The notes beneath the pieces were generated by a model. That model did not search any database. It had not been told where the DNA came from and saw only the letters and a list, made by a program, of their open reading frames with translations. Below are positions 3,097 to 37,208 of a stretch of 37,218 bases of DNA, in pieces. This DNA comes from Bdellovibrionota bacterium (GTDB lineage: Bacteria; Bdellovibrionota; Bdellovibrionia; Bdellovibrionales; JAMPXM01). The first letter of the stretch is position 1. Each line of letters opens with the position of its first letter. The stretch spans positions 1-37,218 of the forward strand of contig CAUJGS010000100.1 in assembly GCA_963170185.1 (NCBI GenBank), in the 5' to 3' direction. The translations under genes and the position numbers were made by a program.

Positions 3097-4530
3097 CTAG
3101 AAGTCCCAAACTCCGTAGAGTTCGCCCTTGATTCCGTAGTAGAGATTCACCGAACCGTCTTTCACCGTCATAAATCCATAGTTCGTGGCCTGCACGAACT
3201 CGATCTCGTCTTGAACAGGAATCTCGACGGGAGTCGATCCAAATCCGACGGCGAAACCAGCGGCTCCCCAACAAAAAACCTTACCAAGCGCATTTCGCGC
3301 GCACGAGTTATAAACTCCGGCACTAATCTGCCTCACGCCAGCGAGAACCAGAACTTCAACAGGCGAAGGGGAATTTACCGTCGTGCCGTCGCCCAACTGC
3401 CCGTAGCGGTTGTCTCCCCAACAGCTGACCTTACCCGAGTCCAATCGCACGCAGGTGAAGCTCGTACCCGACGAGGTCGTCACCTCAACAGCTCCTGAGA
3501 TTCCTTGAACGTAAACGGGGCTGCGGCTCACGGGCTCCAAGTCGTGTCCAAGCTGACCCGAGCCGTTGTCACCCCAACACACCACCTCGCCACTAGAAAG
3601 CACGGCGCATGCGTGATAGGCGCCGAGGCTGATCTGTGTCGCATCCGCAATTCCAAGAACCTGTTGCGGGCTCGAATAGTTTCTCGCTTCCGTGCCGACA
3701 CCGACAAGACCAAGCGAGTTGTCACCCCAACACCAGACCGTGCCGTCGTTCTTTAGCGCACACGCCGCGTACGAACCCGTCACGACATCTTTCACATCGG
3801 TCAGTCCTGGCACTTCCAAAGCCGCAAGACTGAGCGCCGGCTGATCAGAACCCAGCTGTCCAAGGTTATTGCTTCCCCAGCATTTCACCTTTCGATCGGT
3901 CATCACCGCGCAGCCATAGTACTGCGCATTGGAAACTTTGACGGCGCCGGCCGAGCCCTCGATTTCGACGGTCTCAAACGACCTCGCAGGCGGAACCGGG
4001 TAAAGGCTGAAAAAGAAATTCCCCGAACAGCGCACGGTGCGGTTTGGTTCGACGACCGCACAGCTCATCGCGCCTTCTCGACTGGAATACGAGGTCGCAC
4101 GATACTTCGGACCAACCGTGAGGTCGATCTCGTAGGTGCCGACTTTCCCGTCACCTTGGCTGCGCGCCGTCACGGTGAACGTACGCTTCGCGAAGTTGAA
4201 TCCCGCACGCCCTGAAATCACGCCGGTCGTAGAAGAAATCGAAAGCCCCGTCGGGAGTTCGGGCTCGATCGACCAGCTAAATGGGCCAGAGGCAGACACC
4301 TCGGGGCTCGCCGCCAAAACCGCCGCTGGAACATCCGTCGCAAAATCCGCAGAGTGCAAGAACGTGTACGAAGACTGCGCGTAACTGACGTGAAGGTCGT
4401 CGCCCCCAAGCGTTCCGTTGCTTTCGCTAAGACCGACAAACGCAGGCCCCGAACAGTTTTGATAGCCAAGCAAAATCGCAAACGCAAAAACGACGAGGTT
4501 TACTGGCTTGTACCAGTTTGTTCCTCGCAT
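3097..4530 (-). CDS. Lipoprotein with Ig-like domain and RCC1-type repeats
   Basis: 477 residues from the ATG at 4530, chosen because GAGGA lies just upstream and a lipoprotein signal follows at once (charged start, hydrophobic stretch, then GYQNCS with the presumed lipidated Cys at about residue 26). In-frame starts at 4623 and 4593 would put 20-31 polar residues before the signal and lack a ribosome site. After a short linker comes an immunoglobulin-like putative Ig domain (FSWSIEPELPTGLSI, TTGVISG). The rest holds about five RCC1-type repeats with the pattern C-A-x-x-x-x-G-x-V-x-C-W-G-D-N-x-x-G-Q-L-G, which should fold as a beta propeller. Paired cysteines in each repeat may form disulfides, consistent with an exposed location. 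Likely a surface adhesin or binding protein; the ligand is unknown. Confidence 0.85.
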   Translation of the reverse strand: MRGTNWYKPVNLVVFAFAILLGYQNCSGPAFVGLSESNGTLGGDDLHVSYAQSSYTFLHSADFATDVPAAVLAASPEVSASGPFSWSIEPELPTGLSISSTTGVISGRAGFNFAKRTFTVTARSQGDGKVGTYEIDLTVGPKYRATSYSSREGAMSCAVVEPNRTVRCSGNFFFSLYPVPPARSFETVEIEGSAGAVKVSNAQYYGCAVMTDRKVKCWGSNNLGQLGSDQPALSLAALEVPGLTDVKDVVTGSYAACALKNDGTVWCWGDNSLGLVGVGTEARNYSSPQQVLGIADATQISLGAYHACAVLSSGEVVCWGDNGSGQLGHDLEPVSRSPVYVQGISGAVEVTTSSGTSFTCVRLDSGKVSCWGDNRYGQLGDGTTVNSPSPVEVLVLAGVRQISAGVYNSCARNALGKVFCWGAAGFAVGFGSTPVEIPVQDEIEFVQATNYGFMTVKDGSVNLYYGIKGELYGVWDF

Positions 4531-4861
4531 CTGTCCTCGGCTTGCGCCTCGAACACAGTCGTCATTTTCACCGTTGGTTTTGCTTCCGCTCATATAGGTA
4601 TTTCGGCACATCCGGACATTCACTTAGGTATAGAAAAAGAAGTTTTGAGGACCTATCTTATGAAACGCTTCCAGCAAGAAACGGTCGCCCCGTTCTGAGA
4701 CAGTTACGATTTCACAACTCTTCCAACGCTCGACACTTTAAATGAACTAGGACCTCCGACCAGGCGAGGCCACCGAGGAGTGTTTTCAAAACGAAAACAC
4801 TTAATGGCTGTAAGCCGCTTCAAATTTGACGAATGGGTCGGAACAAGATCAAAACGGCTGC
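4531..4861. other. Divergent intergenic region
   Basis: 331 bases between the start of the RCC1 lipoprotein (-) and the start of the TIGR02147 gene (+). It should carry promoters for both. The clear structural element is the palindrome at 4779-4801. The open frames crossing this stretch show no protein-like composition, and I could not assign -35/-10 boxes with confidence. Confidence 0.6.
4779..4801. promoter_or_regulatory. Palindrome upstream of the TIGR02147 gene
   Basis: Perfect 9-base inverted repeat, AGTGTTTTC then a 5-base spacer AAAAC then GAAAACACT, ending 60 bases before the ATG at 4862. No T-run follows on the + strand, so a terminator is unlikely. The core GTTTTC-AAAA-N-GAAAAC recurs at 6452-6480 after the next gene, which suggests a protein binding site, possibly for the TIGR02147 protein itself. 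That role is inference. Confidence 0.5.
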
Positions 4862-7646: not shown

Positions 7647-8633
7647 CTAGGCCGCGAAGCGTGTGCCCGAAGCAGCCGTTCCCGTGACGCCCTGACGAAG
7701 TTCATCAAAGGACTCTGGGCGTGGCTTAAAGACGAAACTTAAGAGAAACCCCATCAACGCTCCACCTAAGTGGGCCGTGTATGCGACGCCCGAAAGCCCG
7801 GGCTGCGAAGCCACCCAGCCACTGAGATCCGGAAGAACAAATCCCGGTATCAGCACCCATGCCGGCAGCCAGGCGACACCATAATAGCCACGCATCGGCA
7901 GCAGCCAGTACACAAATGGCAAACGACGAGACGAGTCGCTTGCCGCCATCGCGATCAAACCAGAGACGGCGGCGCTCGCGCCGACCATCGGCGAAGCGGA
8001 AAGCCCCGACAGCAAAACGTAGGCTAACGCCCCACCGATTCCACTTACCCAAACCGTGGCCGCCGTCGCCTTCCATCCACGCGTGTGCTCGATAAACGTT
8101 CCAAACAAAAGAAGGAACAACATATTCCAGAATAGATGAATCGCACCCGAGTGTGTGATCTGGTAGGTGATCCACTGAAATGGTCCAGAGTGGCCGGCGG
8201 AAAGTCCCATACGATAGGAGGGATGAACCTTTTGAATAAGCCCTAAACGCTCTATCGACTTTTTCCACTTGGAGATCATGATATCGTCGCCAGGTAACTC
8301 TGATGCGGGCTTCCGGCTGACTTGTTCAATGAAGTCCGCACGGCGAAGCGCTAAGTGCCCAAGCAGCTGTCTCGCGTCGGCACTGCCTTTTAAGCTTCGC
8401 TCCGAGAGACTTTGAATACCAGCTGGTTCGTGATCAAGCTTCATCGTCGCCGCAAACAACACGCCGTTGGTTTCTATGAAACCGTCATCTTCCAAAAGAG
8501 TTTCGATCGCCTGATCGGCCGTGAGGTAAGCCGGAAATGTCATAGCGAACATACCGACATTGAGAGCCACCATGATCCAGGTCACAGGGGCTCGGTGAAA
8601 CCAAAGAAGTCCTCTCAAAAGAGGAAAAATCAT
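7647..8633 (-). CDS. Rhomboid family intramembrane serine protease
   Basis: 328 residues from the ATG at 8633, which overlaps the stop of the upstream RDD gene (ATGA). The longer frame to 8807 only runs through that gene. Rhomboids cleave substrates within the membrane. The catalytic Ser is in VGASAAVSG (about residue 220) and the catalytic His in YTAHLGGALMGF (about 288). The family's H-x4-H-x3-N block reads HSGAIHLFWNM (about 161-171). The first membrane helix is followed by a polar insert of about 110 residues (about 40-150) before the conserved core, probably a periplasmic or membrane-flanking domain that may select substrates. Overlap with the RDD/helical-repeat gene suggests that both proteins act together. 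Confidence 0.9.
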   Translation of the reverse strand: MIFPLLRGLLWFHRAPVTWIMVALNVGMFAMTFPAYLTADQAIETLLEDDGFIETNGVLFAATMKLDHEPAGIQSLSERSLKGSADARQLLGHLALRRADFIEQVSRKPASELPGDDIMISKWKKSIERLGLIQKVHPSYRMGLSAGHSGPFQWITYQITHSGAIHLFWNMLFLLLFGTFIEHTRGWKATAATVWVSGIGGALAYVLLSGLSASPMVGASAAVSGLIAMAASDSSRRLPFVYWLLPMRGYYGVAWLPAWVLIPGFVLPDLSGWVASQPGLSGVAYTAHLGGALMGFLLSFVFKPRPESFDELRQGVTGTAASGTRFAA

Positions 8634-10771
8634 CTGCGTCCTCCGGAACGCCGAATCGCCTCGAGAATTTCGAGATCCGAAGAGCGCACAGAGTCCATCT
8701 TCCCTCGTCCGAGATCGCGCGCGCCGGGGAGCAAGCTCGCCGGCAAACGCGAACGTTCCGAAGAATCTAAAATCTCGGCCGCTAGCTTTTTCTTGCCGGC
8801 GCGCCATGCCGCCACGGCGACCCGATTGCGAAGGCCGCGGTCGTTTTCAAATTCAAAACCCGAACCCAGCAAGACGCCGACCTCGGTGGCCGAACGCCAG
8901 TCCCCGCGGCGACTCAAAGTTTCAAAAAGAACACGCCCCCAGTCGCCATAGCGACGGGCGTTGGGAGACTGAAACCATCGTTCACGAAGTTCCGCGATCT
9001 CGGTCTGAGCGTCGCGGTCCTGCTGGGGTTTGCGACTGAGCTCCTCGAGAAGACGGATATTGGCTTCTGTCACAAATAGATCTGTCTGACTCTCCGGGCG
9101 CGCAACCGAGGACGCAAGCTTTCGAAGCAAGCTGATTCCCTTTTCGTGCTCGCTTGAGCGCATCAGGCGGATCGACTCAAAGAGATCTTTTCCCCGGTCT
9201 TCCAATACGTGACTCGACAGACTCGTCAAAAGACTCGTCGTTCCACGGCCGGCGTTGATTCGACACTCGGCGTGTCGCGCGCTTGCCAGCAAAAAGCTCG
9301 GAACCGAGTAATCGCCACTGGCCTCATCCGCCGCGTTTTGCATCATTTCACAAGCACGCATGGCATCTGCCGTACAGCTGGCGTTCTCGCTAAAAGCACC
9401 CTCTTCGTAGAGTTCGCGACTACAGAGCCAAGAAGTCACAACCACTCGACTGCGCTGAGGAAGTGCATCGGCGCTAGCAAAGACCGTGGCCTTCGACTGC
9501 TCCTTCTGCCCAAGACGCCACAGCGCTCGTGCCCGATACTCCACAAGTTTTGCACCGATTGCCAAGTGACGGCCTGGCTCCGAAGACAAGCGGAGAATCA
9601 AATCCGGGTCCGCTTTCATTTGAAAGAGCTCTCGTAAAACCAAAAGACGATACCAGTCGGCGGCCTCCGCACCAGATCGTGCGCGACGGGAATCGTGCGG
9701 CAGCATCGACCGCGCTAAACCTTCGATTTTTTCTGTCAAAGAAGAGTCATCCAGACGCCCGGCATCGGCCGCATCCGTGAACTCATCTTCAGCAGCGGAC
9801 GCGACATGACGGCTTTCATAAGACTCCGAAAGCATGCGGTACCACCCGACAAGGCGACACGCATCGGAATCCGGCTCGAGATCACAAACCTTGGCAAAAT
9901 ACTTTTCAGACTCTTCCGGGTCTTGCTGAAAGCGCGTGAGCCCCTTTGCCAGATACCCCAAGACCCGACCGCCATTGTTCCAAAGCGCGTAGTCGGCCTC
10001 AGTTTCCAAGCAACCGGTGTCGACATAACCAGCTGCCGACAAGCTGAGAGCCACGTGAATCCGAGTCGGTGCGCGATCGGGACGTTCCCACGTCGCTTCG
10101 GCCGCCGTGACGTCTTCACACAAGCGCGGCGCACTTGCGACTTCTTCCACACGCGCTCGCTCACGAAGAAGCACAAACTGCGACGTGAGAACAAGTGTGG
10201 CGAAAAACATCGTCATCGATGTCATCAACGAGCCGGCCGCGAGTTCCGTGAGTTTGGGTGGCGCCGACTGTCGTTTGGTGTTGACCGAGCGCACTTCCGT
10301 ATCCGCTGCGCGATCATGCAGCGGTCTGCGCCTTGGGTTGCTGTACACACCAAAAAACGGAGCCCCAAAAAAGAGAACGCTTCCCCACCACGTCATCGCG
10401 CGAAGAAACGCATTAAAAACTCTGGGCTTATCGCCCGTCCAAACATCGACGACACGAAGACCAAAGATCGCGCGCCCGGGCGTAGTCCCCCAGATGCCGA
10501 CAAAAAACGTTTCCCAAACAACGCCGATAAAGATCGCGACAACAAGGCTTTGCAAAAGTGCGATGTCCGATTCCGCAATGCGATCCAAAAGCCGAGCCTC
10601 GCCAACGGCACGGCGAAACGGCGACATTGCCAGCGCCATAACCGGCGCCAAAAGGACAAAGTCGGCGACGTGCGAAGCCATGCGATCCAGCGGAAGTGCA
10701 ACGTGTGTTTTGCCGCGATTTTCCGAGCCGGATCGGCTGCGCGGCGACTCAAATGGATCGTGAATGACCAT
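8630..10771 (-). CDS. RDD family membrane protein with long helical-repeat domain
   Basis: 713 residues. The first 170 form an RDD domain: LDRMASHVADFVLLAPVM with the conserved R and D, a second helix near residues 80-105, the GTTPGRAIFGLRVVD block and RPLHDRAADTEV. A further membrane segment lies at about 190-210 (SLMTSMTMFFATLVLTSQFV). After that come about 500 soluble residues rich in Ala, Glu and Arg with alternating helices (YLAKGLTRFQQDPEESEKYF, ALWRLGQKEQSKATVFASAD), consistent with degenerate TPR/Sel1-like repeats. RDD domains are of poorly known function, with some members linked to transport. The start at 10771 has only a weak ribosome site. The overlapping rhomboid gene downstream implies stoichiometric synthesis. 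Confidence 0.8.
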   Translation of the reverse strand: MVIHDPFESPRSRSGSENRGKTHVALPLDRMASHVADFVLLAPVMALAMSPFRRAVGEARLLDRIAESDIALLQSLVVAIFIGVVWETFFVGIWGTTPGRAIFGLRVVDVWTGDKPRVFNAFLRAMTWWGSVLFFGAPFFGVYSNPRRRPLHDRAADTEVRSVNTKRQSAPPKLTELAAGSLMTSMTMFFATLVLTSQFVLLRERARVEEVASAPRLCEDVTAAEATWERPDRAPTRIHVALSLSAAGYVDTGCLETEADYALWNNGGRVLGYLAKGLTRFQQDPEESEKYFAKVCDLEPDSDACRLVGWYRMLSESYESRHVASAAEDEFTDAADAGRLDDSSLTEKIEGLARSMLPHDSRRARSGAEAADWYRLLVLRELFQMKADPDLILRLSSEPGRHLAIGAKLVEYRARALWRLGQKEQSKATVFASADALPQRSRVVVTSWLCSRELYEEGAFSENASCTADAMRACEMMQNAADEASGDYSVPSFLLASARHAECRINAGRGTTSLLTSLSSHVLEDRGKDLFESIRLMRSSEHEKGISLLRKLASSVARPESQTDLFVTEANIRLLEELSRKPQQDRDAQTEIAELRERWFQSPNARRYGDWGRVLFETLSRRGDWRSATEVGVLLGSGFEFENDRGLRNRVAVAAWRAGKKKLAAEILDSSERSRLPASLLPGARDLGRGKMDSVRSSDLEILEAIRRSGGRR

Positions 10772-10869: not shown

Positions 10870-11583
10870 CTACTTAGCGGCAGCCGTTGTAGGCACGACC
10901 TTGAAGCCCAATAAACGGCCCTCATGATCCAGCTGAACATCGACCTTCGCGACAGGCATCGAGAAGCCGTTTACCAAATGGTACGACTGATGCTGACCGT
11001 TGTCGGTCTCCTCGCTCTTTACTCGAACGCTCTTTTCGAAGTTCACCGGCATCCACTCGCGATTTTTTTCCATGAAAGAGGCCGTAAATTGGATCGGATT
11101 CAGCTGACCAGATTCGGCGATCTGAATCTCAGAGACTTTCTGAGATTCGTCAATACGCACGGCGTACTTACCTTCTAAAGTTTCGATCGTGAACTTTTCT
11201 AAAGCCGATGGCTTGCGGCCGACAGCCGTGATTTCGCTAAGAGTTTTACCTGCCATCTGTTTCACAAGCTCGTCTTCGCTCACCGAAGTCCCCGTCGGAA
11301 CCGAGGCAATGCCGCGCGAAGGTCGGATCACTTCCGACGTTCCGCTCGAAGCCAGTTCACGCGACTGAATGACTTCTGGATCATGAAGAAGTTTGGAATT
11401 CGCCAATGTGACGACCGTTAGAATCGACAGCAGAGAAACTGGAATCGCGACTTTCGCTTGCTCGAGATCGAGGCGAACTTTTAGCGATTTCAACTTATCC
11501 ATTGGATTGCGGTTCGGCAAACGCTCGGAAATGTCGATCACCTTACGTGGACCATTACCGTCGTTTTGATTATTAGATGTCAT
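10870..11583 (-). CDS. Hypothetical protein with one membrane segment
   Basis: 237 residues from the ATG at 11583, which has GGAGGG four bases upstream; the frame's earlier start at 11601 lies before that ribosome site. The N-terminal 40 residues are polar and basic, followed by a short hydrophobic stretch at about residues 45-63 (VAIPVSLLSILTVVTLANS) that probably anchors it in the inner membrane with the C-terminus outside. The C-terminal 110 residues have a repeated strand pattern (KYAVRIDESQKVSEIQIAES, AKVDVQLDHEGRLLGFKVVP), suggestive of a small beta-rich domain. No family is recognised. It follows the S41 peptidase gene at about 190 bases and has its own terminator. Confidence 0.7.
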   Translation of the reverse strand: MTSNNQNDGNGPRKVIDISERLPNRNPMDKLKSLKVRLDLEQAKVAIPVSLLSILTVVTLANSKLLHDPEVIQSRELASSGTSEVIRPSRGIASVPTGTSVSEDELVKQMAGKTLSEITAVGRKPSALEKFTIETLEGKYAVRIDESQKVSEIQIAESGQLNPIQFTASFMEKNREWMPVNFEKSVRVKSEETDNGQHQSYHLVNGFSMPVAKVDVQLDHEGRLLGFKVVPTTAAAK

Positions 11584-11773
11584 CGAACCCTCCTCCATCA
11601 TTGTACCACTCGCAAGCTAACGAGCGGCCTCACACACACAAGCCAGTGCAACCGATGTTCCGAGATGAGCCACTTGGTCTCTCGTTTAATTCGTCCCTAG
11701 CCTGTGCCAGTGACGCTCAAATCGCGATGCGCTTTTTTGCTCGACAGCTGAACAGGAGATCGACACCAGCGTC

Positions 11774-13084
11774 TCACTTTGAGACGATTCGAAGCGTTCT
11801 TGTCGCTTCAAGTATCCAAGGATCTTTGGGTGATCTCCACGCCTTCAAACTGTCCGTCAGTATCTGATCGGGAGAAACTCCGAGACGCTCAAGCTCCTGG
11901 CCCTTTGCCGAGCGGTAGAGTGCGACAGGTATGGAGACTGTATAATCCGGACTAAGTGCCTGGATCTGAAACCACCTTGCCATCACGACGTGGCCCGCGG
12001 TTCGCCACCCCATCACATAAGAAAGTGGTCGTTCTTTGATGGCCTGAGCAAAGATCTCGGAAACCGAGGCCGTATGCTGGTCCACCACAACCACCACCGG
12101 CCCTTTAAAGCAGGCGGGTTGTGCAAAGGGTTTAAGTTCGATGGCGTTGTACTTTTCCAAAATCTCCAACTGAGGCTCGGCCGCGACATCATTGCGCATG
12201 ACCATCGCGCTTTCGGCACTTTCTTTACCAGCGGCCTCAGACGGAGGACTATCGCGATACAGCCAACCGATCGGCTCGCGTCCGCAACTCACCGTGCTCA
12301 AAACCCGAAGCATCGCCGGAAAACTTCCGCCGCCGTTGCCACGTATGTCGATCACCAGGCGGTCTCCCCGCTTTTGCATTTCAATGATTTCATCTTGAAT
12401 GCGCGTCCATTCGTCGCTTTCAATCGCTTGCGCCAAGAACGAAGGTATTCGCAAGACACGAATGCCTTTCTTTTCCTGGGATTCCACCCAGCGTGGAACC
12501 AAGCTTTCTTGAAAAACCTCCGCTCGGATCAACACATTCACGCGGGTTTCGTCCGGTCGAATAATTTCCCAGAACCCGCTCGCTTCACGCAATTCATCTG
12601 GATCTTGAATCGGGTTGCCATCGACCGCGACAACGAGGTCACCGGCCGTCAGCCCGGATTTTTCGGAGGCCGAGCCCGGCAAAACGCGAGTCACAATGAT
12701 TTCGCCATCGACGATTCTTCCGCGAGCGCCCGTATCGACGGACTCGCCCGTCCACAGCGCCACGGTCTCATTAGGTGCATAGGCTCCAAGATGAGAAATC
12801 CGAATGGCGCTTAAACGTTGATTTAAAATTTCAATCAGAGCCCGCTTTGGACTCATGAATTTACGCATTGAAAGTGCGCGATCCACATCTTGTTCGGATT
12901 CCTCCAAACAGATTTCAACAAACTTGCGAGTCGCGATCTCTTGGCGTTTAACAAAATCCGTCAGCAGCCGACCACAAACATCGCGTTGCGCGCGAAGCAG
13001 GCTCGATTTTTCCACCGCAAAAAAAGAAAGTGACGACACTCCGAGGAGGGTCGTCACAATCATGGCCGCTGTGAGTGTTTTCAC
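11774..13084 (-). CDS. S41 family peptidase (C-terminal processing protease-like) with PDZ
   Basis: 436 residues. An N-terminal signal or anchor (about 4-23) is followed by a helical section, a PDZ domain (about 125-190, ITRVLPGSASEKSGLTAGD-like core) and an S41 peptidase core (about 205-410). The strand LVIDIRGNGGGSF and the nucleophile block HTASVSEIFAQAI are typical; the nucleophile is Ser340. At the place where Prc/CtpA enzymes have the general-base lysine (25 residues later, in FGKG) this protein has TAGH, with His365. S41 enzymes clip C-termini of periplasmic substrates. The GTG start at 13084 is uncertain; an ATG at 13063 is the alternative. It lies 24 bases after the Fis-like gene, so the two may share a transcript. 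Confidence 0.85.
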   Translation of the reverse strand: MKTLTAAMIVTTLLGVSSLSFFAVEKSSLLRAQRDVCGRLLTDFVKRQEIATRKFVEICLEESEQDVDRALSMRKFMSPKRALIEILNQRLSAIRISHLGAYAPNETVALWTGESVDTGARGRIVDGEIIVTRVLPGSASEKSGLTAGDLVVAVDGNPIQDPDELREASGFWEIIRPDETRVNVLIRAEVFQESLVPRWVESQEKKGIRVLRIPSFLAQAIESDEWTRIQDEIIEMQKRGDRLVIDIRGNGGGSFPAMLRVLSTVSCGREPIGWLYRDSPPSEAAGKESAESAMVMRNDVAAEPQLEILEKYNAIELKPFAQPACFKGPVVVVVDQHTASVSEIFAQAIKERPLSYVMGWRTAGHVVMARWFQIQALSPDYTVSIPVALYRSAKGQELERLGVSPDQILTDSLKAWRSPKDPWILEATRTLRIVSK

Positions 13085-28226: not shown

Positions 28227-28256
28227 GAAAAAAGCAGGGAGGCCTACAGGCCTCCC
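28227..28256 (-). terminator. Terminator of the envelope-complex operon
   Basis: On the - strand GGGAGGCCT and AGGCCTCCC (28237-28256) form a perfect stem with a minimal loop, followed by TGCTTTTTTC. It lies about 40 bases beyond the stop of the VWA gene and ends the seven-gene - strand run. Confidence 0.85.
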
Positions 28257-28295: not shown

Positions 28296-29537
28296 TTACT
28301 TCGTCACCAGGCCAGCCCGCAGCGACTGCGCCGTGACCGGAGTGAACTTCACCTTGAGGTCGATCACGCCGTTCACCTTTGAAAGGTCCTGCGTGATGAT
28401 GACGTTGTTTCGAGCGTCATCGTAAATCCAGCCCTCGCCAAGCTTTTGATCGACGTCGTTGAGCTTCACTTCGATGGTTCCCCACTCAGGGATCGCATCG
28501 AGTTCCACGCGAGGACGCGCCAGAGTTCGTTCACGAACATAGCGTCCAAGATCCGACATCGCGTCGCCGTAGTTCTTGTCGCGTAAGCCCATCCAACGAC
28601 CGCCGAGGTCACGGATGAAGTTTTGGATATTGATCGGCTCCGTAGGACCGCGGCTCGCATAACGAATCGCCGGATCACGTTCTTTTTCCGCATCTGTGCT
28701 GCGCGCAAGAACTCCGAGCGCCGTCACGTGATCGCGGTAGTCAGGCCCGATCGTTCCACGCAAGAACTCCTGAAGCTCACCACCGGAAAGATCAAACGAC
28801 GTTCCGTCCGCATTCTTGATCGAAGCCTCGGAGTCCGTGATGAAGATCAAAACCAAGTGAGCGTCGTTTCGACGAAAGCCCTTGTTAGAACCTTCGGCCA
28901 TTGGAGAGCTCAAAGCCATCTTCACCGGAGAGAAAATCTCTTCGATGTTCGGCCCGCCGGTTTTTTCTTCTTTCCACTTTTCATTGTAAGCTTCAGTCCC
29001 GATTTTCATCGAAGCGCGAAGCACTTGCAGCCAACCTGGTTCGCGACCAAGCTTAAAGCCTTCTTTTGCCAAATACTCGTCGTAGTTGGCGCGGCTAGAA
29101 ACGAAGCGACCAAATTCTTCCGGCATGGGTTTGCCATCGGGACGCTTCAAGCGTCGGAGTTCACCCGGTCCGTGATCTTTGGTCATCTCTTTGAAAGTGA
29201 TCGAATCCCAAACCGAAACGGCTGCGATGTGAAAGTCGATTCCGGAGTTTGTTGCCAGGCCCGTCGTAAAACGGTCGATGTTGCGGCTCAAATCGTTTTG
29301 CTCGTCGAGCATCGAGTCCGAGTTGTCGATGACCATGAGGATGTCGACCTTTGGGCTCACGCTCAGCACCTGCGGCTTTGACTCAGTCGCAGCCTCACCG
29401 TACTTCACCGGAGGCGCCATCAAGCGCGGGTTTTCTGGCGAACATGCTAAGCCCGCAAGCGCAATCGCCGAAGCGAGAACGCAAAGTTTCACGTGTTCTA
29501 TTTTCGTCTGCATCAGAGACTTCAGTTCCGTCATCAT
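28296..29537 (-). CDS. von Willebrand factor A domain lipoprotein
   Basis: 413 residues; the ATG at 29537 overlaps the upstream stop and has AAGGA upstream. The signal region ends in a lipobox GLAC with lipidated Cys about residue 32. A VWA domain follows: VDILMVIDNSDSML carries the metal-binding MIDAS motif D-x-S-x-S (Asp71, Ser73, Ser75), and HLVLIFITDSEAS supplies the later acidic position. The C-terminal 90 residues look beta-rich (WGTIEVKLNDVDQKLGEGWI, VIDLKVKFTP). VWA domains bind protein ligands or polymers through the metal. Last gene of the seven-gene run; it may be the exposed or adhesive component. Confidence 0.85.
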   Translation of the reverse strand: MMTELKSLMQTKIEHVKLCVLASAIALAGLACSPENPRLMAPPVKYGEAATESKPQVLSVSPKVDILMVIDNSDSMLDEQNDLSRNIDRFTTGLATNSGIDFHIAAVSVWDSITFKEMTKDHGPGELRRLKRPDGKPMPEEFGRFVSSRANYDEYLAKEGFKLGREPGWLQVLRASMKIGTEAYNEKWKEEKTGGPNIEEIFSPVKMALSSPMAEGSNKGFRRNDAHLVLIFITDSEASIKNADGTSFDLSGGELQEFLRGTIGPDYRDHVTALGVLARSTDAEKERDPAIRYASRGPTEPINIQNFIRDLGGRWMGLRDKNYGDAMSDLGRYVRERTLARPRVELDAIPEWGTIEVKLNDVDQKLGEGWIYDDARNNVIITQDLSKVNGVIDLKVKFTPVTAQSLRAGLVTK

Positions 29538-30499
29538 GACTTCGGTCCTTTACCGCCATCTTGTGCACCAGCACTTGTGGCACTTGGTGCTCCCGGACAG
29601 CCGTTGGCTTCAACATGGTAGTTGTCCAATTCATCCAACCAAACGTCTTCCGTATCATCCGGGAAAACGAGTGTATTGGCATCGCGCTTGACAGCCGTCG
29701 AAGGCGTTTTTGCGTCCGCAAGATGCACCTTCGAGTACATGCGGCTCACGGCTTCGACTTCCATCAAGTGAAACTTGCGCAAGACTTCGCCGATGTCTTT
29801 CACATCGCGCTCCGCGAGCGCCTTCAGGCGTGCACGGACTGTCGCCATGTGTTTGTCGCTTCCGGGCTTCATCGAGGCCTGAAACGACGTGCGAAGCTTT
29901 TTATCCCGGTAGATCATGCGCGGAAGGTTGGCGAGATCCTCACCAGCTGTCTGGCGAGACACGTCGCCTGCATCAAACGAGCGAGAAAGAAACTTTTCCG
30001 CCGCTGGCGAGTTGCCGGTTTTAGCCAGCACCTTAAGCGCGTCGTATCGCGGCTGAATATCTGCTTTAAAACGCTTCATGACTCGGAAGAGTTCGTCGTA
30101 GTTACAAAGACGAAGTTGTACGATTCCAGAAAGCAAATACGGCTCACCGCCGATTTCGTATTTTACTGGCGGAGCTGTCAGAGTCTTTACCAGACTCAGA
30201 GCTTGATCGTGCTCTTTCACGTGAACCAAAGCCCACGCACGCTCTTCCAAAGATTCCGACCAATAATCGCTAGTCGCCGGAATTTTCGAATAGAGGTTGA
30301 TCGAACGACGGTAGTCCTTCTTCTCAAAAGCTACTCGTGCATCGCGAAGAACCTGTTTGTCCGTGGGTTGAGCCGAGGTCTTTGTCGCAGACGTCTTAGC
30401 TCCAGCCTTAGCATCAGCTACCGACGCCGTCAGACCCATCGTAACGAGGCCTGCCGTCAAAAGACCAATTGCTGAAAAAAATCCGCGCGACTGGTTCAT
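29534..30499 (-). CDS. Exported TPR-like protein (GltC-like)
   Basis: 321 residues with a Sec signal peptide (about 1-30, ending ASVADA). Residues 50-130 look like two or three TPR units (ARVAFEKKDYRRSINLYSKI, ERAWALVHVKEHDQALSLVK). The C-terminal part carries a short beta-like block NTLVFPDDTEDVWLDELDNY, then a Gly/Ser-rich tail containing a single cysteine. The ATG overlaps the preceding stop and its own stop overlaps the VWA start. By context and architecture it resembles periplasmic GltC-type proteins that sit next to the outer-membrane barrels in Myxococcus, but this is not proven by sequence. Confidence 0.75.
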   Translation of the reverse strand: MNQSRGFFSAIGLLTAGLVTMGLTASVADAKAGAKTSATKTSAQPTDKQVLRDARVAFEKKDYRRSINLYSKIPATSDYWSESLEERAWALVHVKEHDQALSLVKTLTAPPVKYEIGGEPYLLSGIVQLRLCNYDELFRVMKRFKADIQPRYDALKVLAKTGNSPAAEKFLSRSFDAGDVSRQTAGEDLANLPRMIYRDKKLRTSFQASMKPGSDKHMATVRARLKALAERDVKDIGEVLRKFHLMEVEAVSRMYSKVHLADAKTPSTAVKRDANTLVFPDDTEDVWLDELDNYHVEANGCPGAPSATSAGAQDGGKGPKS

Positions 30500-31230
30500 A
30501 ACAAGAGTCCGATTCCGATCGTACCGATCATCATGCCGACGTCGCGTGTTCCTGTATAAACTTTGTCCTGATACGCCTGATGGCGGATTTCGATGCGCGA
30601 ACTAAAGTTCTGCGTCCACCAGAAACCAACTCCGCCACCTGCTGTCCAAGTTGCGCTCGAGCCAGATTTGAGTTCCATCTGACCGTATCCACCAGTGAGG
30701 TAGATATCGAACTGCACAACTGAGAGGTCGAAGAAGTTTAGTTTACCGTACATAGGATAGTAAGACAGCATCCCCATCATCGACGATTTAGGAAGGTCGA
30801 TTTCTGGAATCGTGTAATCCAGCTGTCCAGCTTGTTGTGCCGAGCGAGCCGCATCAAACTGCGACTGACCTTCACGAGAAAGCTGGTTTGCGTACTGAGC
30901 GTAACGGAAACCAAGCGAAATGCGTGGTGTGAAGTGGAAGTCCACCGCCCCCATCAAAGGCTGTGAGTTCAAGTAAGAGTTCCCACCTGCAACGCCGCCG
31001 TAAGCGACGCCAAGTTCAAGACGCATGTCGCGGTCAACCGCGCGCTTTTGAACGATGCGAATCTGTTGCTTCGTGTTCAGCGCGCGAGCGCGTTTCAAGA
31101 TACCTTCGTTCGCTCCAAGAGAATCGAAGTCCGACTTTGCCATCGCGGTTGTCGACACCAGTGTCGCCGCCAACGCCATTCCGAAAGCTACTCCGAGGCC
31201 AAGAATCTTTGTTCCGATATTCGTTTTCAT
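30496..31230 (-). CDS. Outer-membrane beta-barrel protein (OMP_myx-like)
   Basis: 244 residues from the ATG at 31230, behind GAGG; a TTG at 31242 is an in-frame alternative. A signal peptide (about 1-31, ending TTAMA) precedes a helical stretch with KQQIRIVQKRAVDR, followed by alternating amphipathic strands rich in Gly and aromatic residues (MRLELGVAYGGVAGGNSYLN, FHFTPRISLGFRYAQYANQ, FDIYLTGGYGQMELKSG) and ending on hydrophobic IGIGLLL. This matches the TIGR04565-type outer-membrane barrel domain found in delta-proteobacterial envelope systems. Overlaps the next gene by four bases. Confidence 0.8.
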   Translation of the reverse strand: MKTNIGTKILGLGVAFGMALAATLVSTTAMAKSDFDSLGANEGILKRARALNTKQQIRIVQKRAVDRDMRLELGVAYGGVAGGNSYLNSQPLMGAVDFHFTPRISLGFRYAQYANQLSREGQSQFDAARSAQQAGQLDYTIPEIDLPKSSMMGMLSYYPMYGKLNFFDLSVVQFDIYLTGGYGQMELKSGSSATWTAGGGVGFWWTQNFSSRIEIRHQAYQDKVYTGTRDVGMMIGTIGIGLLL

Positions 31231-31238
31231 GACCAACC

Positions 31239-32339
31239 TCAAGCCTTCTTGGCGCCTGCAGCTGCAGCCGGTTTAGGATTCGTTTTTGCCGCTGGTGCCG
31301 TCGTCTTTGCCGGAGCTTTCGGCGCCGCCGGAGCAACACAAGCCTCAGGTTTGTTCGACGCTGTTTGTGGTTTTTCGTAAGCGATTTTGGTTAGAATCAG
31401 CTTCTCGCCCGAAACACCACCACTCGACCCATAAGCCTTCATCAGCATGCGCGTGCGCAAGTGCGTAGCACCTTCAACGCGTTTTCCGTCGCGATCCAAT
31501 TGCGCGCCGACGTCGTTGTTTTTCGCATCGAACACGAAGCTAAAGCGCCAGATCCCGTTTCCAAGATGCTTAGGCGTCGACTCATGACGAACATAAGTTG
31601 CACCGTTGGCTTCGTAACCGCTCTCAGTGCGATTTGTACCTTGAAAATAAACATCCAAACGCGGGCTAAAACCGTCGTAGCTAGCCGGGTCGGCAACGTC
31701 GACAGTGAAAGGAACCATTTGTCCTTGTGCGATTTCTGTTGGAAGCGCACTCATGTTGACGATCATCGGGGTTTTACCAGTGCGACGAACCGCAAACGAG
31801 AACTCTTGAACACGGTTGATCGAACGGAAGAGCTGCTCGACCGATGGATCTTGCGCACGTACGTCCGCAAGCTCAAGACGGTAATTGACCTGACGTTCCG
31901 AACGATCCGAAGGAATGAAGTCTTTAGGAGCCGACCAAGTCACGATGTAGCTACCGGCTTCATTTGGCACTTTTTGAAGAGCAACGCCCGCGACGTCTTG
32001 CGGAAGACCATTGATACGAAGCTCATAAGAATCGACTGGGAAGAACACGCGAACACGAACCTTGAACGAGTTCGTCTCACCGGCGATGAAGGTTGCATCG
32101 CGCTCAGGTTCGATCACATACGAGCGATCGATAACGGCTTGTGTCCGTGCTTTTTCTTGATGTGGTGGAACCGCCGCGTTGAGATCCGCATACTCCGATG
32201 TCGGATCTGAGCTAACTCCACCGCATCCAACTAGGCCAGCAAGTAAACTCAAGCCAGCAAGTGTAAGGACCAGCGACTTTTTCTGATGTGTACGGTCCAG
32301 AAGACTCGTAACTCGTGCTGCCTCGGAAATCGTTCTCAT
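31239..32339 (-). CDS. Lipoprotein with beta-sandwich-like body, operon component
   Basis: 366 residues from the ATG at 32339 (GTG at 32348 is possible). The lipobox is LAGLVGC with the lipidated Cys about residue 39. The body, about 70-320, is beta-rich with extended strands (FKVRVRVFFPVDSYELRING, GIWRFSFVFDAKNNDVGA) like one or two Ig-like or fibronectin-like domains. The C-terminal 50 residues are a Lys/Ala/Pro tail (APKAPAKTTAPAAKTNPKPA), typical of a peptidoglycan- or envelope-spanning spacer. No family is recognised. It lies between the AgmX/PglI protein and the barrel protein and is probably a periplasmic bridge between them. Confidence 0.75.
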   Translation of the reverse strand: MRTISEAARVTSLLDRTHQKKSLVLTLAGLSLLAGLVGCGGVSSDPTSEYADLNAAVPPHQEKARTQAVIDRSYVIEPERDATFIAGETNSFKVRVRVFFPVDSYELRINGLPQDVAGVALQKVPNEAGSYIVTWSAPKDFIPSDRSERQVNYRLELADVRAQDPSVEQLFRSINRVQEFSFAVRRTGKTPMIVNMSALPTEIAQGQMVPFTVDVADPASYDGFSPRLDVYFQGTNRTESGYEANGATYVRHESTPKHLGNGIWRFSFVFDAKNNDVGAQLDRDGKRVEGATHLRTRMLMKAYGSSGGVSGEKLILTKIAYEKPQTASNKPEACVAPAAPKAPAKTTAPAAKTNPKPAAAAGAKKA

Positions 32340-32393
32340 AGCGGACACCCATCCATGTTTCCTGGGCGCCGCTCCTATTTGCGAGGCCCGGGG

Positions 32394-33767
32394 TTAGTTA
32401 ACGCCGACTACGTCGGTGGACGAGACTCTTCGGAAGCTAAACGGATACTGAACTTGTACGTTCACTCCCGCTACCGGCCGTGGGAACTTGAAACCTTTCA
32501 AGCGCCCTACGATACAGCCTTCCAGCTGTCTCGACTCCACAGAAGAGTGCTGGACTCGTGCCGTCGATACTTGGCCGCCAGCTCCAATTACGAAGCTCAC
32601 CGCGACCCGACCCTTTAGAGAAGGTTCAACTTGGAGCCCTTTTTCGTAACAATAGCGAATTTGCCCCATGTTGCGGCTGATGACTTCTTCAACCTGTTCA
32701 CGCGTTAAACCGCCCTGGATGAACGATTCGCCATCGAGAGGCAATACGTAGCCACCAGACGAACCAAGCATAGAACGATTTCCATAGCCCTCACGACCGC
32801 CGCCGCGGCCTTTGGTGCCGTACCCACCAGCCGAACCAGCGCGCGCACCAGAGCCGTTAGAGGCCGCAATCAGGCCTTTGCCAAAAAGGGCACCAGCAAC
32901 GCCGCCAGTTCCGCTAGAACCAACACCGCCGCCGCCCGTTCCGCGATCACCGCCACGAGCCAAAGAAGAACCATTGAGATTCAAACCGCCACCAGATTGA
33001 AGCTTCTTAGAAACTCCACCGAGAGCACCAAGCGCTCCCATGCTTTCTAGTTTCGGCTCTGTCTTAGGAATACGAGCTGTGGCTTTGCGATTCATCGTAG
33101 GCTTAACAGGGGCACGCTTTGTCACCACACGTGGCGGCTGGCGTTTTACGATTTCACGCTTCACGATTGCGTTCACCTTAGGTTGAACGACTTTTTGAAC
33201 CGGAGGGCGAGTCATCGGCTGCACAACAGGAGGTGGCTCCACCTTCGCGATTTTTTCCAGTTCAACTGGACGAATCGTTGTGACGACTTCTTCTTTTTTC
33301 GTTTCTTCTACCAAAAAATGACCAAGAACCAGCGCAATCAAGATCAAAGCAGTTTGAACACCGCCGATCCACTTTCCAGCCATGATGAGATCGCGACGAT
33401 CGTCTTCGGTTTTAAGCTCATAGCTAGGAGCCAATTTCATCGAAGAGATATCCACGACCGTGATCTGACCCAAAATCCCTACACGGTAGGGTTTTGAGCG
33501 AAGTTCCGCGATCGTCGATTCCTGCAAAACATCAAACTCCACACCTTCCGTGCGAAGCTCGTTTACGTTAAGCGATGGTTCAATGCGACGACGGTCGTGA
33601 CGGTAGACAAGCGTCACTTTCGATCGTGTCGAGAGCGTTTCGCCTTCCTCGTTCACAAGATTAAAGACCCGAACCAACTCGCCCTGTGCGTTCACAAGAG
33701 CTACCTGTTCGCGCTTTTCTGGCTCATTTTTCCCTGTCTGCTTCTTTTCAACACTTGCTTGTGTCAT
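32394..33767 (-). CDS. AgmX/PglI C-terminal domain protein (GltG/GltJ-like)
   Basis: 457 residues from the ATG at 33767 (33785 is an alternative), one base after the preceding stop. Cytoplasmic domain, about 1-130; one membrane helix, about 133-153 (WIGGVQTALILIALVLGHFL); then a Pro/Val/Lys-rich periplasmic spacer (about 165-225), a Gly-rich region (about 245-350) and a C-terminal domain (about 355-450) with two conserved cysteines in IRYCYEKGL and LEGCIVGRL, and GRVAVSFVIGAGGQV. This TonB-like AgmX/PglI domain is known from the Myxococcus gliding complex, where such proteins reach through the periplasm. The same layout suggests force or signal transmission from the inner membrane to outer-membrane partners encoded downstream. 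Confidence 0.88.
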   Translation of the reverse strand: MTQASVEKKQTGKNEPEKREQVALVNAQGELVRVFNLVNEEGETLSTRSKVTLVYRHDRRRIEPSLNVNELRTEGVEFDVLQESTIAELRSKPYRVGILGQITVVDISSMKLAPSYELKTEDDRRDLIMAGKWIGGVQTALILIALVLGHFLVEETKKEEVVTTIRPVELEKIAKVEPPPVVQPMTRPPVQKVVQPKVNAIVKREIVKRQPPRVVTKRAPVKPTMNRKATARIPKTEPKLESMGALGALGGVSKKLQSGGGLNLNGSSLARGGDRGTGGGGVGSSGTGGVAGALFGKGLIAASNGSGARAGSAGGYGTKGRGGGREGYGNRSMLGSSGGYVLPLDGESFIQGGLTREQVEEVISRNMGQIRYCYEKGLQVEPSLKGRVAVSFVIGAGGQVSTARVQHSSVESRQLEGCIVGRLKGFKFPRPVAGVNVQVQYPFSFRRVSSTDVVGVN

Positions 33768-33768
33768 A

Positions 33769-34089
33769 TCAATCTCTCTCTTCATCTTGCTTCATTCGGT
33801 CACGAAACTGTGTACGGAGACCCAAAAGCTCTTCGATGGGTTTTTCGTTTTCCACACGCGCTGTCGCCTCACCAGGAACCTGGTACTGACCACCTACGCG
33901 TGAGCCCGAAAAACTCATCTGAGTAGAAAGGCGCTTCGCCGTTTCTTTTGTCATCGTCTGCGAGCTCGCACGGACCTGGCGCGCCTGACTGTCTCGACGG
34001 CTCGAAGCTTTCGCTACCGAACTCGTCGCCACCATCGCAGCGAGCGTCATCAAGTAAACCGTCACGACAAGAATCATCTTCCCATTCAT
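33769..34089 (-). CDS. Small exported protein of the operon
   Basis: 106 residues. The ATG overlaps the upstream TPR gene's stop by four bases and the stop lies one base before the next start. A signal peptide (MILVVTVYLMTLAAMVATSSVAKA, in two stretches, about 5-28) precedes a polar, Arg/Ser/Gln-rich body ending in charged MKQDEERD. No family is recognised. Its placement and complete overlap with neighbours argue that it is a real operon member, perhaps a small periplasmic adaptor. Confidence 0.7.
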   Translation of the reverse strand: MNGKMILVVTVYLMTLAAMVATSSVAKASSRRDSQARQVRASSQTMTKETAKRLSTQMSFSGSRVGGQYQVPGEATARVENEKPIEELLGLRTQFRDRMKQDEERD

Positions 34090-37000
34090 GGCTTCACTCC
34101 CATCCGGCTCATACGCGAATCCAAGTACGCAACCATCGTGTCCGATCCCGCTTTTGCTTCGAGATCTCTCAAACGACGGATGTTTTCGATATCAAACGGA
34201 TCTTCTTTCACCGAGCGGCGAGCACGGTCGATCGTTGCCACACGAACCGCTTGCTGATCGCTATCCATGGCCGAAACAACACGTTTCGCGGCTTCGGACT
34301 GACCAACGGCGTTCAGCGCCTGCACCAGCTTCTGACCTTCTTTTGCCAGGAACTGACGTTTTGCTCCGACCGTCTTTTCGATCGCAAGACCAAAACTCTC
34401 AGCCGGATTCGTGCGCCAGAACTTTTGAACCTTGTCAGTGATACGAACCGCTTTTACTTCAAACGGCTGAACCTGCTTTTGTACAAGGATCTGGTAACGC
34501 TTGAGATCGGACTCTTTAAGACCCTTAGGAGCCGGCAGCGCCAAGATCTCTTCTTTCAAACGACGGTTCTCGTTCGCCACAGCTTGCAGAGACAAAGCCT
34601 GAAGCCAAGCATCGCCAGTTTTGATCATGCTGTTTGCAAATTGATCGGCCTGGTTCAAGGCCTGTACGCGAGTCTGAATAGCGCGACTCAAAGCGCGGTC
34701 ACCGGCACCAACAGGCAACTTCGATGTCGCAAGCTTTTGCGCCCACGAAGAGATCTTTCCAATTTCACGCGCTCGAACAAGGACCGAACCTTCTTCTGTC
34801 TTCGCAACACCTTTCACGGCCAAGAGACGATCCGCAAGACGGCTTGACGGCTGACGTGCGTAAACTTCAAGGCCGAGACTTGCTACCAGCCCCGGTTGGC
34901 TACGGAATTCGCCCAAGTGAGCCATGAATTCGCGCTCCGAGTAGTTCGACAATTTCACAAGGTTCACACGTGCTGCCAAGACCGCTTTGCGATCCTTCGA
35001 GAGACGAATGAACTGACGAAGGTGCGGCTTTGCATCGCGACCCGCCAATTCAGCCAAGAGAGACAAGCGAAGCTCTCGTTCGGCCTGAGAAAGCCCCGTG
35101 TGCTTCATCTGACGAGCTGTCACATAGGCTGTCGGGAAATCGAGTTGCATTTCCGCAACCCAGAGGCGTTTAGCCATCGCGTCTTCACGCTGCTTTTCGC
35201 TCGCACCTTTGAAGTTGATAACAGCGACCGCTGCCGCACTTGCCTCTTCAAAGTTTCTTGTCTTTTCAGCCAAGACGAAACGGTTTTGATAGGTAAGAAG
35301 CACTTCTTCGTTCGAAGCGCCTTTGAGGTTTAACCTCTTTAAGCGCTCGAGATTCTCTTCCATCTCCGCATTGCGGCCCGTGCCCGCAGCTTTCGCCGCG
35401 ATATTGAGTCTCGCTCGGCGAGCAACACCCAGGTACTCGGTCGAAGCTTGTGGGTAGAGCTTCGCAAGCTCTTCGCCCATCGCTTCCAGGCGCGAGTCAT
35501 TTTTTTGAAGTGCAACCGCATCCAAGGCGAGGTCAGCCGCTTGGCGGCAGAAGCTAGGAGAGTTCTTTTCACGGCAGTTTTCGTCGCGAGCCGCAAGTTC
35601 AAAGAACATATCGGCCGCTTTCGCCGTTTCGCCACGTGTGTAAGTGACGTGTGCGATCTGATAGCGAACCTCCAATGATTTAGCACCTTTTGGATTCAGC
35701 GCCAGGTAGTGACGATACGCCGACTCACGGGCGTTAAGGTCTTTGGTTTCTTCCGCAAGTTCGATTTCCGAAAGAAGACTTCCCTCAAAAACCGAAACAA
35801 GGTTCTTATCCCAAGTGTCTTGCTTGGTCGAAGTCATGATCTTCGACGATTCCACCGAAGCCGTGCGATACAGCTTCATCGCATCACCACGGTGCTTAGG
35901 ACCTAGGCTACGCGCCACGGTCGCACCCCAGAATGCCATCTCAGAGTCGTTAGCGAAGATCGAAACGTACGACTTGTACATCTCAAGAAGATTCGAAGTC
36001 AGTTTGGTTTCTTCGTTCTTGTTCCAATCGAGAACAAGTTTACGGAAACGCTTTTGAAGAAGCTCACACTCGGCAAGTGGATCACATCCACCCTTCTTCC
36101 ATTGCTCGATCGCCGTGCGGTAGTCCGTCACAGCGCGAGCTTTGTCGCCCATGCCGAAACGAAGGCTTGCAACGCGAACCAGAGCTTCTGTTTTTTCGCG
36201 ATTCGAAAGACCCTGCGCGCGAGTCGCCAACACCGTCCACACGTCAATCGCCGAACGGCGCTGACCAAGACGCTCAGCCTCATCAGCGAGTGTCATCAGA
36301 ATGTCTTTACGAGCCACTTCGGGGCTCAATGCCCAAAGCTGTTCGATGTCTTTACGATCAAACCCTGTGCGGGCGTAAAACACCGTCAGGTCGCGAGCGA
36401 TATCTTCTTGGAAAGACGCATCTGGTTTTCCAGCTTGCGAGCTTACCGAAGACTCCAAAGTCAAAAGGCTTGGCGACTTTAAAATCATCAAAAGACGCTC
36501 TTTACCAGCTTGCGACTGACCAAGATTCAATTGCGACCAAGCGATGCGGTAGTGAATCCAGCCTTTTCGAGGTGTCGCAGGGTTTTTAAGAGCCAGTTCA
36601 AACCCACGTTTCGCAGGGGCAAAACGCTTTTCGCGAAACGCGATTTCCGCAAGACCGGCTTGCGACTGACCTAAAACTGCTTGAGAGAAGTGTTTTGACC
36701 CCAAAGACAGAATGCGACGATACATCGCCTCGGCTTTGCGATTGTCCTGATTCATTTCATAGAGATGGGCCAGGTGAAAGAGGATGCGGCTTTGATTCGC
36801 ACCCGAACTCTCACGAAGCGCCATTTCGTAGTAGGAGATCGCTTTTTTGCGATCATCCGCCGAACGCGCGCAGAAGGCTTTTAGTTCGGCTTCGTTTTCT
36901 TTCGTAAAACGAGTTTGGTCGAAACATCCGCGCTCAACCTCTTCCATCGACATCAAACGAGCACGTTCCGAAAACAAGTCCGCAAGACGCAAAAGCGCTG

Positions 37001-37208
37001 GTACTCGTGTGCCATCACCTTTTGGCGTTTGCTCGATCACATCCTCGAGCTTTTGAATGAGAAACCCGTGGGTCTCAACATCCATCTTTTCTGCACCCTG
37101 ACCAGGAACCGCGGCGTGCGCCAACACCGAGGCAAGCGGGCTTGTGCAAAGCACCGTCAAAGCCAAAACCCCCGAGACCGAAAGGTCCAGGAGGGATTTC
37201 TTCAACAT
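34086..37208 (-). CDS. Large exported TPR-like repeat protein (first gene of the operon in view)
   Basis: 1040 residues, complete, with the ATG ten bases from the window edge so its promoter is outside. A signal peptide (about 1-33, ending AHAAV) is followed by helical repeats of TPR/superhelical type over almost the whole length (LFHLAHLYEMNQDNRKAEAM, YRRILSLG; LAEIAFREKRFAPAKRGFEL; IAHVTYTRGETAKAADMFFE). Residues 95-120 include a cysteine pair in ERGCFDQ and KAFCARS. It should be a periplasmic scaffold. Large TPR proteins are a component of the Glt gliding machinery in Myxococcus. It overlaps the small exported protein gene by four bases. Confidence 0.82.
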   Translation of the reverse strand: MLKKSLLDLSVSGVLALTVLCTSPLASVLAHAAVPGQGAEKMDVETHGFLIQKLEDVIEQTPKGDGTRVPALLRLADLFSERARLMSMEEVERGCFDQTRFTKENEAELKAFCARSADDRKKAISYYEMALRESSGANQSRILFHLAHLYEMNQDNRKAEAMYRRILSLGSKHFSQAVLGQSQAGLAEIAFREKRFAPAKRGFELALKNPATPRKGWIHYRIAWSQLNLGQSQAGKERLLMILKSPSLLTLESSVSSQAGKPDASFQEDIARDLTVFYARTGFDRKDIEQLWALSPEVARKDILMTLADEAERLGQRRSAIDVWTVLATRAQGLSNREKTEALVRVASLRFGMGDKARAVTDYRTAIEQWKKGGCDPLAECELLQKRFRKLVLDWNKNEETKLTSNLLEMYKSYVSIFANDSEMAFWGATVARSLGPKHRGDAMKLYRTASVESSKIMTSTKQDTWDKNLVSVFEGSLLSEIELAEETKDLNARESAYRHYLALNPKGAKSLEVRYQIAHVTYTRGETAKAADMFFELAARDENCREKNSPSFCRQAADLALDAVALQKNDSRLEAMGEELAKLYPQASTEYLGVARRARLNIAAKAAGTGRNAEMEENLERLKRLNLKGASNEEVLLTYQNRFVLAEKTRNFEEASAAAVAVINFKGASEKQREDAMAKRLWVAEMQLDFPTAYVTARQMKHTGLSQAERELRLSLLAELAGRDAKPHLRQFIRLSKDRKAVLAARVNLVKLSNYSEREFMAHLGEFRSQPGLVASLGLEVYARQPSSRLADRLLAVKGVAKTEEGSVLVRAREIGKISSWAQKLATSKLPVGAGDRALSRAIQTRVQALNQADQFANSMIKTGDAWLQALSLQAVANENRRLKEEILALPAPKGLKESDLKRYQILVQKQVQPFEVKAVRITDKVQKFWRTNPAESFGLAIEKTVGAKRQFLAKEGQKLVQALNAVGQSEAAKRVVSAMDSDQQAVRVATIDRARRSVKEDPFDIENIRRLRDLEAKAGSDTMVAYLDSRMSRMGVKP

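Follow-up and report, generated by a model that had tools for sequence, protein, structure and literature searches.

In Myxococcus, the Glt complex passes force from the AglRQS motor to the VWA adhesin CglB (PMC13104615), and its component GltF is the protein also called CglF (PMC4488436). Bdellovibrio bacteriovorus carries four tonB/agl operons, Bd0412-0420, Bd0828-0838, Bd1473-1483 and Bd2368-2377 (PMC2797640), and lacks GltH, GltI, GltJ and GltK according to Luciano et al. (PMC3169522). At 30 min of predation, expression of Bd0412-0420 is up 4-7-fold, an increase that host-independent growth does not show (PMC2797640). Protein levels are highest at 45-60 min for Bd0411-Bd0421 and rise at exit for Bd2368-2377; the authors of that study speculate that Bd0411-Bd0421 acts in movement inside the bdelloplast (PMC12546842). 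Here we analysed an entire contig of an uncultured Bdellovibrionota bacterium (CAUJGS010000100.1, 37,218 nucleotides, contig C100 of genome G000; hereafter the window), which carries an operon of related composition on the minus strand at 28296-37208. We consider it reasonably probable that this operon encodes an AglRQS-powered, Glt-type trans-envelope force machine of the Bd0411-Bd0420 kind, ending in an integrin-like lipoprotein with a metal ion-dependent adhesion site (MIDAS) and used on or inside prey.

The seven open reading frames (ORFs) of the operon are tightly spaced (Table 1). Four of the six junctions are 4-base overlaps. The other two depend on the start codons chosen: with ATG codons within the third and fourth ORFs they become gaps of 1 and about 54 bases, whereas the longest ORFs give an overlap of 17 bases and a gap of 45 bases. 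A terminator-like hairpin lies 40 bases past the last stop codon, and an SMC gene follows on the same strand; across the region as a whole, terminator-like sites show no excess (19, compared with 18 in shuffles). The seven packed genes, with 4-base overlaps or gaps of 1-54 bases, and the single terminator that a first-pass annotation had read from the letters alone are thus borne out by the ORF coordinates with ATG starts and by the G-C-rich hairpin with its T-tract.

The operon is truncated by the edge of the contig, from which the start of its first ORF is separated by 10 bases. The first 43 residues of this ORF recur at 100% identity on contig C108, and the two contigs share a unique overlap, as would be expected at an assembly-graph junction. 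Just upstream on C108, on the same strand, we identified three motor ORFs with spacings of 3, 11 and about 35 bases. In two congeneric genomes (L053 and L054) all ten genes run uninterrupted, and the flanks in both are the same as here, with a PPDK-like gene upstream and the SMC gene downstream. The seven genes of the window are genes 4-10 of a ten-gene operon, which runs in one order on one strand across the window and C108.

The motor ORFs match the TolQ/ExbB and TolR/ExbD families in profile searches, the first being one of ten MotA/ExbB matches in the genome. Motor residues D62 of AglS and T143, T150 and T184 of AglR are invariant wherever aligned. A separate observation concerns the AglQ-like protein (L052:11613-12098) and 72 relatives: the predicted proton-carrying aspartate of the membrane helix is a serine in 26 of these relatives, among them the copy on contig C51 of the window genome itself, and an aspartate in the congener G004. 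This position has changed at least six times on the tree, whereas the AglS aspartate was never seen changed, and some AglQ/AglS motors may run with one aspartate per Q/S pair. The genome also contains a gene for a 196-residue MglA-like small GTPase (L153:1306-1896, on contig C25); for MglB, no match to PF03259 (Robl_LC7) was found in the genome.

Gene 6 corresponds to the inner-membrane protein with a Pro/Gly spacer and an AgmX/PglI domain that the first-pass annotation had proposed. It comprises a cytoplasmic N-terminal domain without a recognised FHA, a single hydrophobic segment near residues 141-160, the Pro/Gly-rich spacer and a C-terminal AgmX/PglI domain (99.9 bits, cut-off 40). The NCBIfam GltG profile matches this protein with E = 2.5e-33 (115.5 bits, covering profile positions 419-647 of 650), and TonB_C scores 19.2 bits, under its cut-off of 24.6. 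A plasmid collection searched with GltG gave no match.

The remaining exported and outer-membrane parts also agree with the composition first assigned to the operon. The two exported TPR-like proteins are the products of genes 4 and 9; TPR_2 scores at the Pfam cut-off in the former, and the latter matches the GltC profile. A hidden Markov model (HMM) of the large TPR family also matches the TPR protein adjoining gltC in Myxococcales G1-type loci, and an HMM of the GltC-like homologues matches gltC itself in such loci. The small exported protein is GltF/CglF-like, with a CglF profile match that is weak here (E = 0.08) and stronger in the C51 paralogue (2e-6). The beta-barrel exceeds the cut-off of its Myxococcus family.

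Both lipoproteins were recovered as well, each with a lipid cysteine that is invariant in its relatives: C42 of gene 7 across 44 aligned sequences and C32 of gene 10 in 45, the latter together with the MIDAS residues D71-x-S73-x-S75 and the distal D235. The AlphaFold model of gene 7 (mean predicted local distance difference test score, pLDDT, 84) aligns over residues 74-326 with tandem immunoglobulin (Ig)/cadherin folds with a best Z of 8.7, at a high root-mean-square deviation (rmsd) that supports the fold class only. The model of gene 10 (pLDDT 86) resembles an integrin I domain (Z 13.8, rmsd 3.2, 189 residues), and its alignment with integrin beta heads covers as many as 270 residues, reaching past the I domain; Ig-like and integrin folds are common, and these matches count as fold evidence only. 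A sequence search of the PDB with both lipoproteins gave no match. Among relatives of gene 10, Pfam VWA is recognised in 23 of 45 and the CglD profile in 42 of 45. Gene 10 combines the VWA fold, the DxSxS motif and the lipid anchor that broadly define MIDAS adhesins, and like Bd0875 with its relatives and Myxococcus CglB/CglD it is a VWA lipoprotein with an intact MIDAS motif. Unlike Bd0875 and CglD, it is encoded within a motor operon, and it matches their profiles locally and far under cut-off (26.5 bits for the whole-protein Bd0875 profile NF052240, curated cut-off 700). Bd1483 was rejected as its counterpart: in L189, which we take to correspond to Bd1473-1483, the VWA gene precedes the motor by two genes.

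To follow gene order, we built HMMs from relatives and annotated 80 named loci from GTDB genomes, drawn from Bdellovibrionota. The order AglR-AglQ-AglS-TPR-GltF-GltG-lipoprotein-barrel-GltC-VWA is kept in all 47 loci that hold the AglR as well as the VWA end, none being reordered; this set was selected by the presence of both ends, so the VWA gene is present in it by choice. All ten genes were detected by HMM in 35 of these loci, and the commonest gap is the fast-evolving lipoprotein. The first-pass annotation had named profile matches to Glt/Agl families, synteny across Bdellovibrionota and a nearby motor gene as support for its reading. The GltG, GltC, AgmX/PglI and barrel matches, this very strong synteny and the AglR/Q/S-like genes across the contig junction provide all three.

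One annotated locus, L104 (CALQIT020000024.1), lies on a contig of a metagenome-assembled genome titled Streptomyces griseus; it carries the Bdellovibrionota operon and groups within that phylum in the tree, and it is probably from a mislabelled or mixed bin. Homologues of the large TPR protein occur in 34 of 40 related genomes, and the VWA lipoprotein family, counted as a whole and beyond operon members, in 187 of 242 genomes of the phylum. The window genome has eight matches to this VWA/MIDAS family (on contigs C51, C65, C26, C100 and others), several of them away from motor operons. G020, a 2.7-Mb genome of the same order in one contig, has no match to the operon TPR protein or the VWA family at the thresholds used, so that certain complete genomes of this order may manage without the two.

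The GltG profile also found Myxococcales loci (L181-L184) in which an FHA-bearing gltG stands together with gltC and a large TPR gene. L190 and contig C66 of the window genome have this Myxococcales-like arrangement with barrels and AglRQS in addition. Shared by Myxococcus xanthus Agl/Glt, Bd0828-0838, the C66 cluster and the window operon are AglRQS, which is linked to the cluster here too, the GltG C-terminal domain, GltC, GltF, the large TPR protein and a Myxococcus-type barrel. The FHA-bearing GltG of M. xanthus, Bd0828-0838 and C66 has no equivalent in the window, where the FHA region of full-length GltG was not found. The Glt type has two barrels (GltA/B in M. xanthus, two OMP matches in L190), in contrast to the single TIGR04565 barrel that accompanies the 52-bit GltC relative here, whereas the window type adds Ig-domain and MIDAS lipoproteins and the C66 and L190 clusters have no VWA match. 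GltH, GltI, GltJ and GltK were not recognised in the operon, by searches that were not aimed at them. Because GltG and GltC of C66 score far better than those of the window (228.6 against 115.5 bits and 169.9 against 52.2 bits, respectively), the window operon is, on these profile scores, a paralogous branch carrying MIDAS and Ig-domain lipoproteins. Orthology with Glt was rejected on the same grounds and on a rooted tree that separates the two. The resemblance to Glt put forward by the first-pass annotation thus stands in kind, through the profiles and the motor, and falls short of exact identity, given the match to the C-terminal part of GltG only, the one barrel and the closer C66 cluster. 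Another cluster, on contig C134 (L050:1468-14321), comprises AglRQS, FHA-GltG, GltC and a barrel in divergent order and adjoins a second AglR/AglS-like pair.

Besides C66 and C134, the window genome has further clusters on C51 and C40. G039, which we take to be B. bacteriovorus HD100, has GltG genes at 392 kb (-), 785 kb (+), 1396 kb (-) and 2277 kb (-); these positions fit the four published tonB/agl operons, and the G039 clusters were assigned to them accordingly. The 785 kb copy has an FHA-type GltG, and its counterpart L190 has AglS last, as is required if this cluster is Bd0828-0838, in which Bd0838 is AglS (PMC6561027). A seven-protein tree rooted on C66- and C40-type clusters, with support from the Shimodaira-Hasegawa-like approximate likelihood-ratio test (SH-aLRT), places the window with the G039 operon at 388-399 kb (L193) in a 13-row set (SH-aLRT 98) and apart from the G039 operon at 2.27 Mb (L194), which joins the C51 cluster in a 12-row set (SH-aLRT 100). 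The split recurs in a larger tree that lacks this root. All ten operon proteins, from the window and C108, score higher against the first of these HD100 operons than against the second. The tree placement and these scores identify the window operon as the Bd0411-Bd0420 counterpart, its last gene corresponding to Bd0411; the Bd numbers themselves are inferred from gene counting.

The operon is therefore not a new system, since its counterpart has been described (PMC2797640, PMC12546842). HD100 Bd0411-Bd0421 (Bd0412-Bd0420 in PMC2797640) has the same ten genes, order and strand and falls in the same clade, whereas the sequences have diverged (GltG is about 38% identical). Bd2368-Bd2377 and the C51 cluster share the ten-gene order but form a separate clade, and in HD100 the protein levels go up when prey is exited and not when it is entered (PMC12546842). 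The gliding candidate Bd0828-0838 had been considered first, from its position in strain kdesi, and was rejected after the four HD100 clusters were placed.

In the machine that we propose, AglR, AglQ and AglS would form an inner-membrane stator that draws on the proton gradient and pushes or pulls GltG, whose Pro/Gly spacer would reach across the cell wall. The AgmX/PglI domain of GltG would pass force to the large TPR protein, GltC and the small GltF; the periplasmic TPR proteins and GltF would in turn drive an outer-membrane platform composed of the barrel and the Ig-domain lipoprotein. This platform would display or move the MIDAS lipoprotein, which may grip a surface in the manner of CglB at the focal adhesions of Myxococcus. 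Since induction of the Bdellovibrio counterpart comes shortly after the predator enters prey, the most likely role of the machine would be to move or anchor the predator on prey envelope structures, rather than ordinary surface gliding. Between the gliding and prey contact that the first-pass annotation had offered for a variant machine, the published timing of the counterpart favours prey contact, or a role inside prey, over the former. Several points weigh against this interpretation. GltG and GltC of the window, at 115 and 52 bits, are far under the curated equivalog cut-offs of 650 and 450, and the Bdellovibrio literature examined yielded no Bd0411-Bd0420 mutant. Surface exposure of the MIDAS lipoprotein is a prediction, and the predatory timing is that of B. 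bacteriovorus and may not carry over to this uncultured, putatively predatory organism.

A strict surface gliding machine, as Glt is in Myxococcus, would have the same types of parts plus the motor; B. bacteriovorus does glide, and gliding candidates have been published from related operons (PMC3169522; bd1480 in PMC9140294). We nevertheless regard this as unlikely for the window operon, as within this genome the C66 cluster, with its FHA-GltG and 170-bit GltC, stands closest to Glt, and the C66 counterpart Bd0828-0838 is the best gliding candidate according to Luciano et al. (PMC3169522). A transposon mutant of Bd0838 (AglS) is defective in prey attachment, killing and rounding (PMC6561027), and the operon orthologous to that of the window is switched on once prey has been entered, but not during host-independent growth (PMC2797640). 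Less likely still, in our view, is energised transport of the TonB or Nfs kind, in which the motor would power outer-membrane uptake or polymer movement without cell movement. AglR/Q/S do belong to the TolQ/TolR/ExbB/ExbD family, GltG ends in a sub-threshold TonB-like domain, Lambert et al. name these operons tonB-like and propose secretion or uptake (PMC2797640), and a related Myxococcus machine, Nfs, moves spore-coat polymer (PMC3858216). However, a domain search found no TonB-dependent receptor among the seven genes and no transporter in the operon, the lone barrel is of the small Myxococcus type, and the MIDAS lipoprotein that closes the operon in the 47 two-ended loci, a set chosen by having it, fits adhesion better. 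That the tight packing is a coincidence of a compact genome, with no common machine formed by the proteins, is very improbable, given an order unchanged in these 47 loci despite protein drift to about 15-40% identity and a second paralogous operon with the same order in the same genome.

Table 1. Features of the operon and its contig junction in order of transcription; positions are those of the window unless another locus is named.
Feature	Position	Strand	Length	Evidence
AglR/AglQ/AglS-like motor genes	L052 (C108): 10893-11609, 11613-12098, 12110-12682	same strand as operon	238, 161, 190 aa	TolQ/TolR-family profiles
Contig-end overlap with G000:C108	37078..37218	minus	141 bases	exact match, only two places in genome
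Large exported TPR protein, gene 4, counterpart of GltD-type periplasmic TPR protein	34086..37208	minus	1040 aa	TPR_2
Small exported GltF/CglF-like protein, gene 5	33769..34089	minus	106 aa	CglF profile
GltG-like inner-membrane force transducer (putative), gene 6	32394..33785	minus	463 aa	NCBIfam GltG and AgmX/PglI matches
Lipoprotein with two tandem Ig-like domains, gene 7	31239..32348	minus	369 aa	invariant lipid Cys, AlphaFold model
Outer-membrane beta-barrel, Myxococcus OMP_myx_plus type, gene 8	30496..31242	minus	248 aa	TIGR04565 93.1 bits, cut-off 60
GltC-like exported TPR protein, gene 9	29534..30499	minus	321 aa	NCBIfam GltC E = 4.3e-14
VWA/MIDAS lipoprotein, candidate integrin-like surface adhesin, gene 10	28296..29537	minus	413 aa	MIDAS residues, AlphaFold
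Terminator-like hairpin, operon end	28237..28256	minus		8 pairs, 7 G-C, T-tract; z = -3.6 vs shuffles

Elsewhere on the minus strand of the window, the product of 3097-4623 is 508 residues long and contains RCC1-type repeats along with an Ig-like domain. At 7647-10771, also on the minus strand, a Rhomboid-domain ORF (7647-8807) and an RDD-family ORF (8630-10771) share about 180 bases, and because of this overlap one of the two starts was probably called too early.

The operon type proposed here as an AglRQS-powered force machine has already been described in B. bacteriovorus, and the window represents an uncultured relative that carries it. Our analysis sets the canonical Glt cluster apart from two other conserved ten-gene operons. 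In each of these, the MIDAS lipoprotein stands out as the candidate adhesin and the Ig-like protein as the platform lipoprotein, and each of the two is open to a single-deletion test. More tentatively, the Bdellovibrio lineage might have adapted a motor of the Glt type to dedicated traction on the prey side, equipped with an integrin-like adhesin and an Ig-domain lipoprotein of its own, in which case the window-type copy would serve establishment inside prey and the second copy exit, with the true gliding cluster kept separate.

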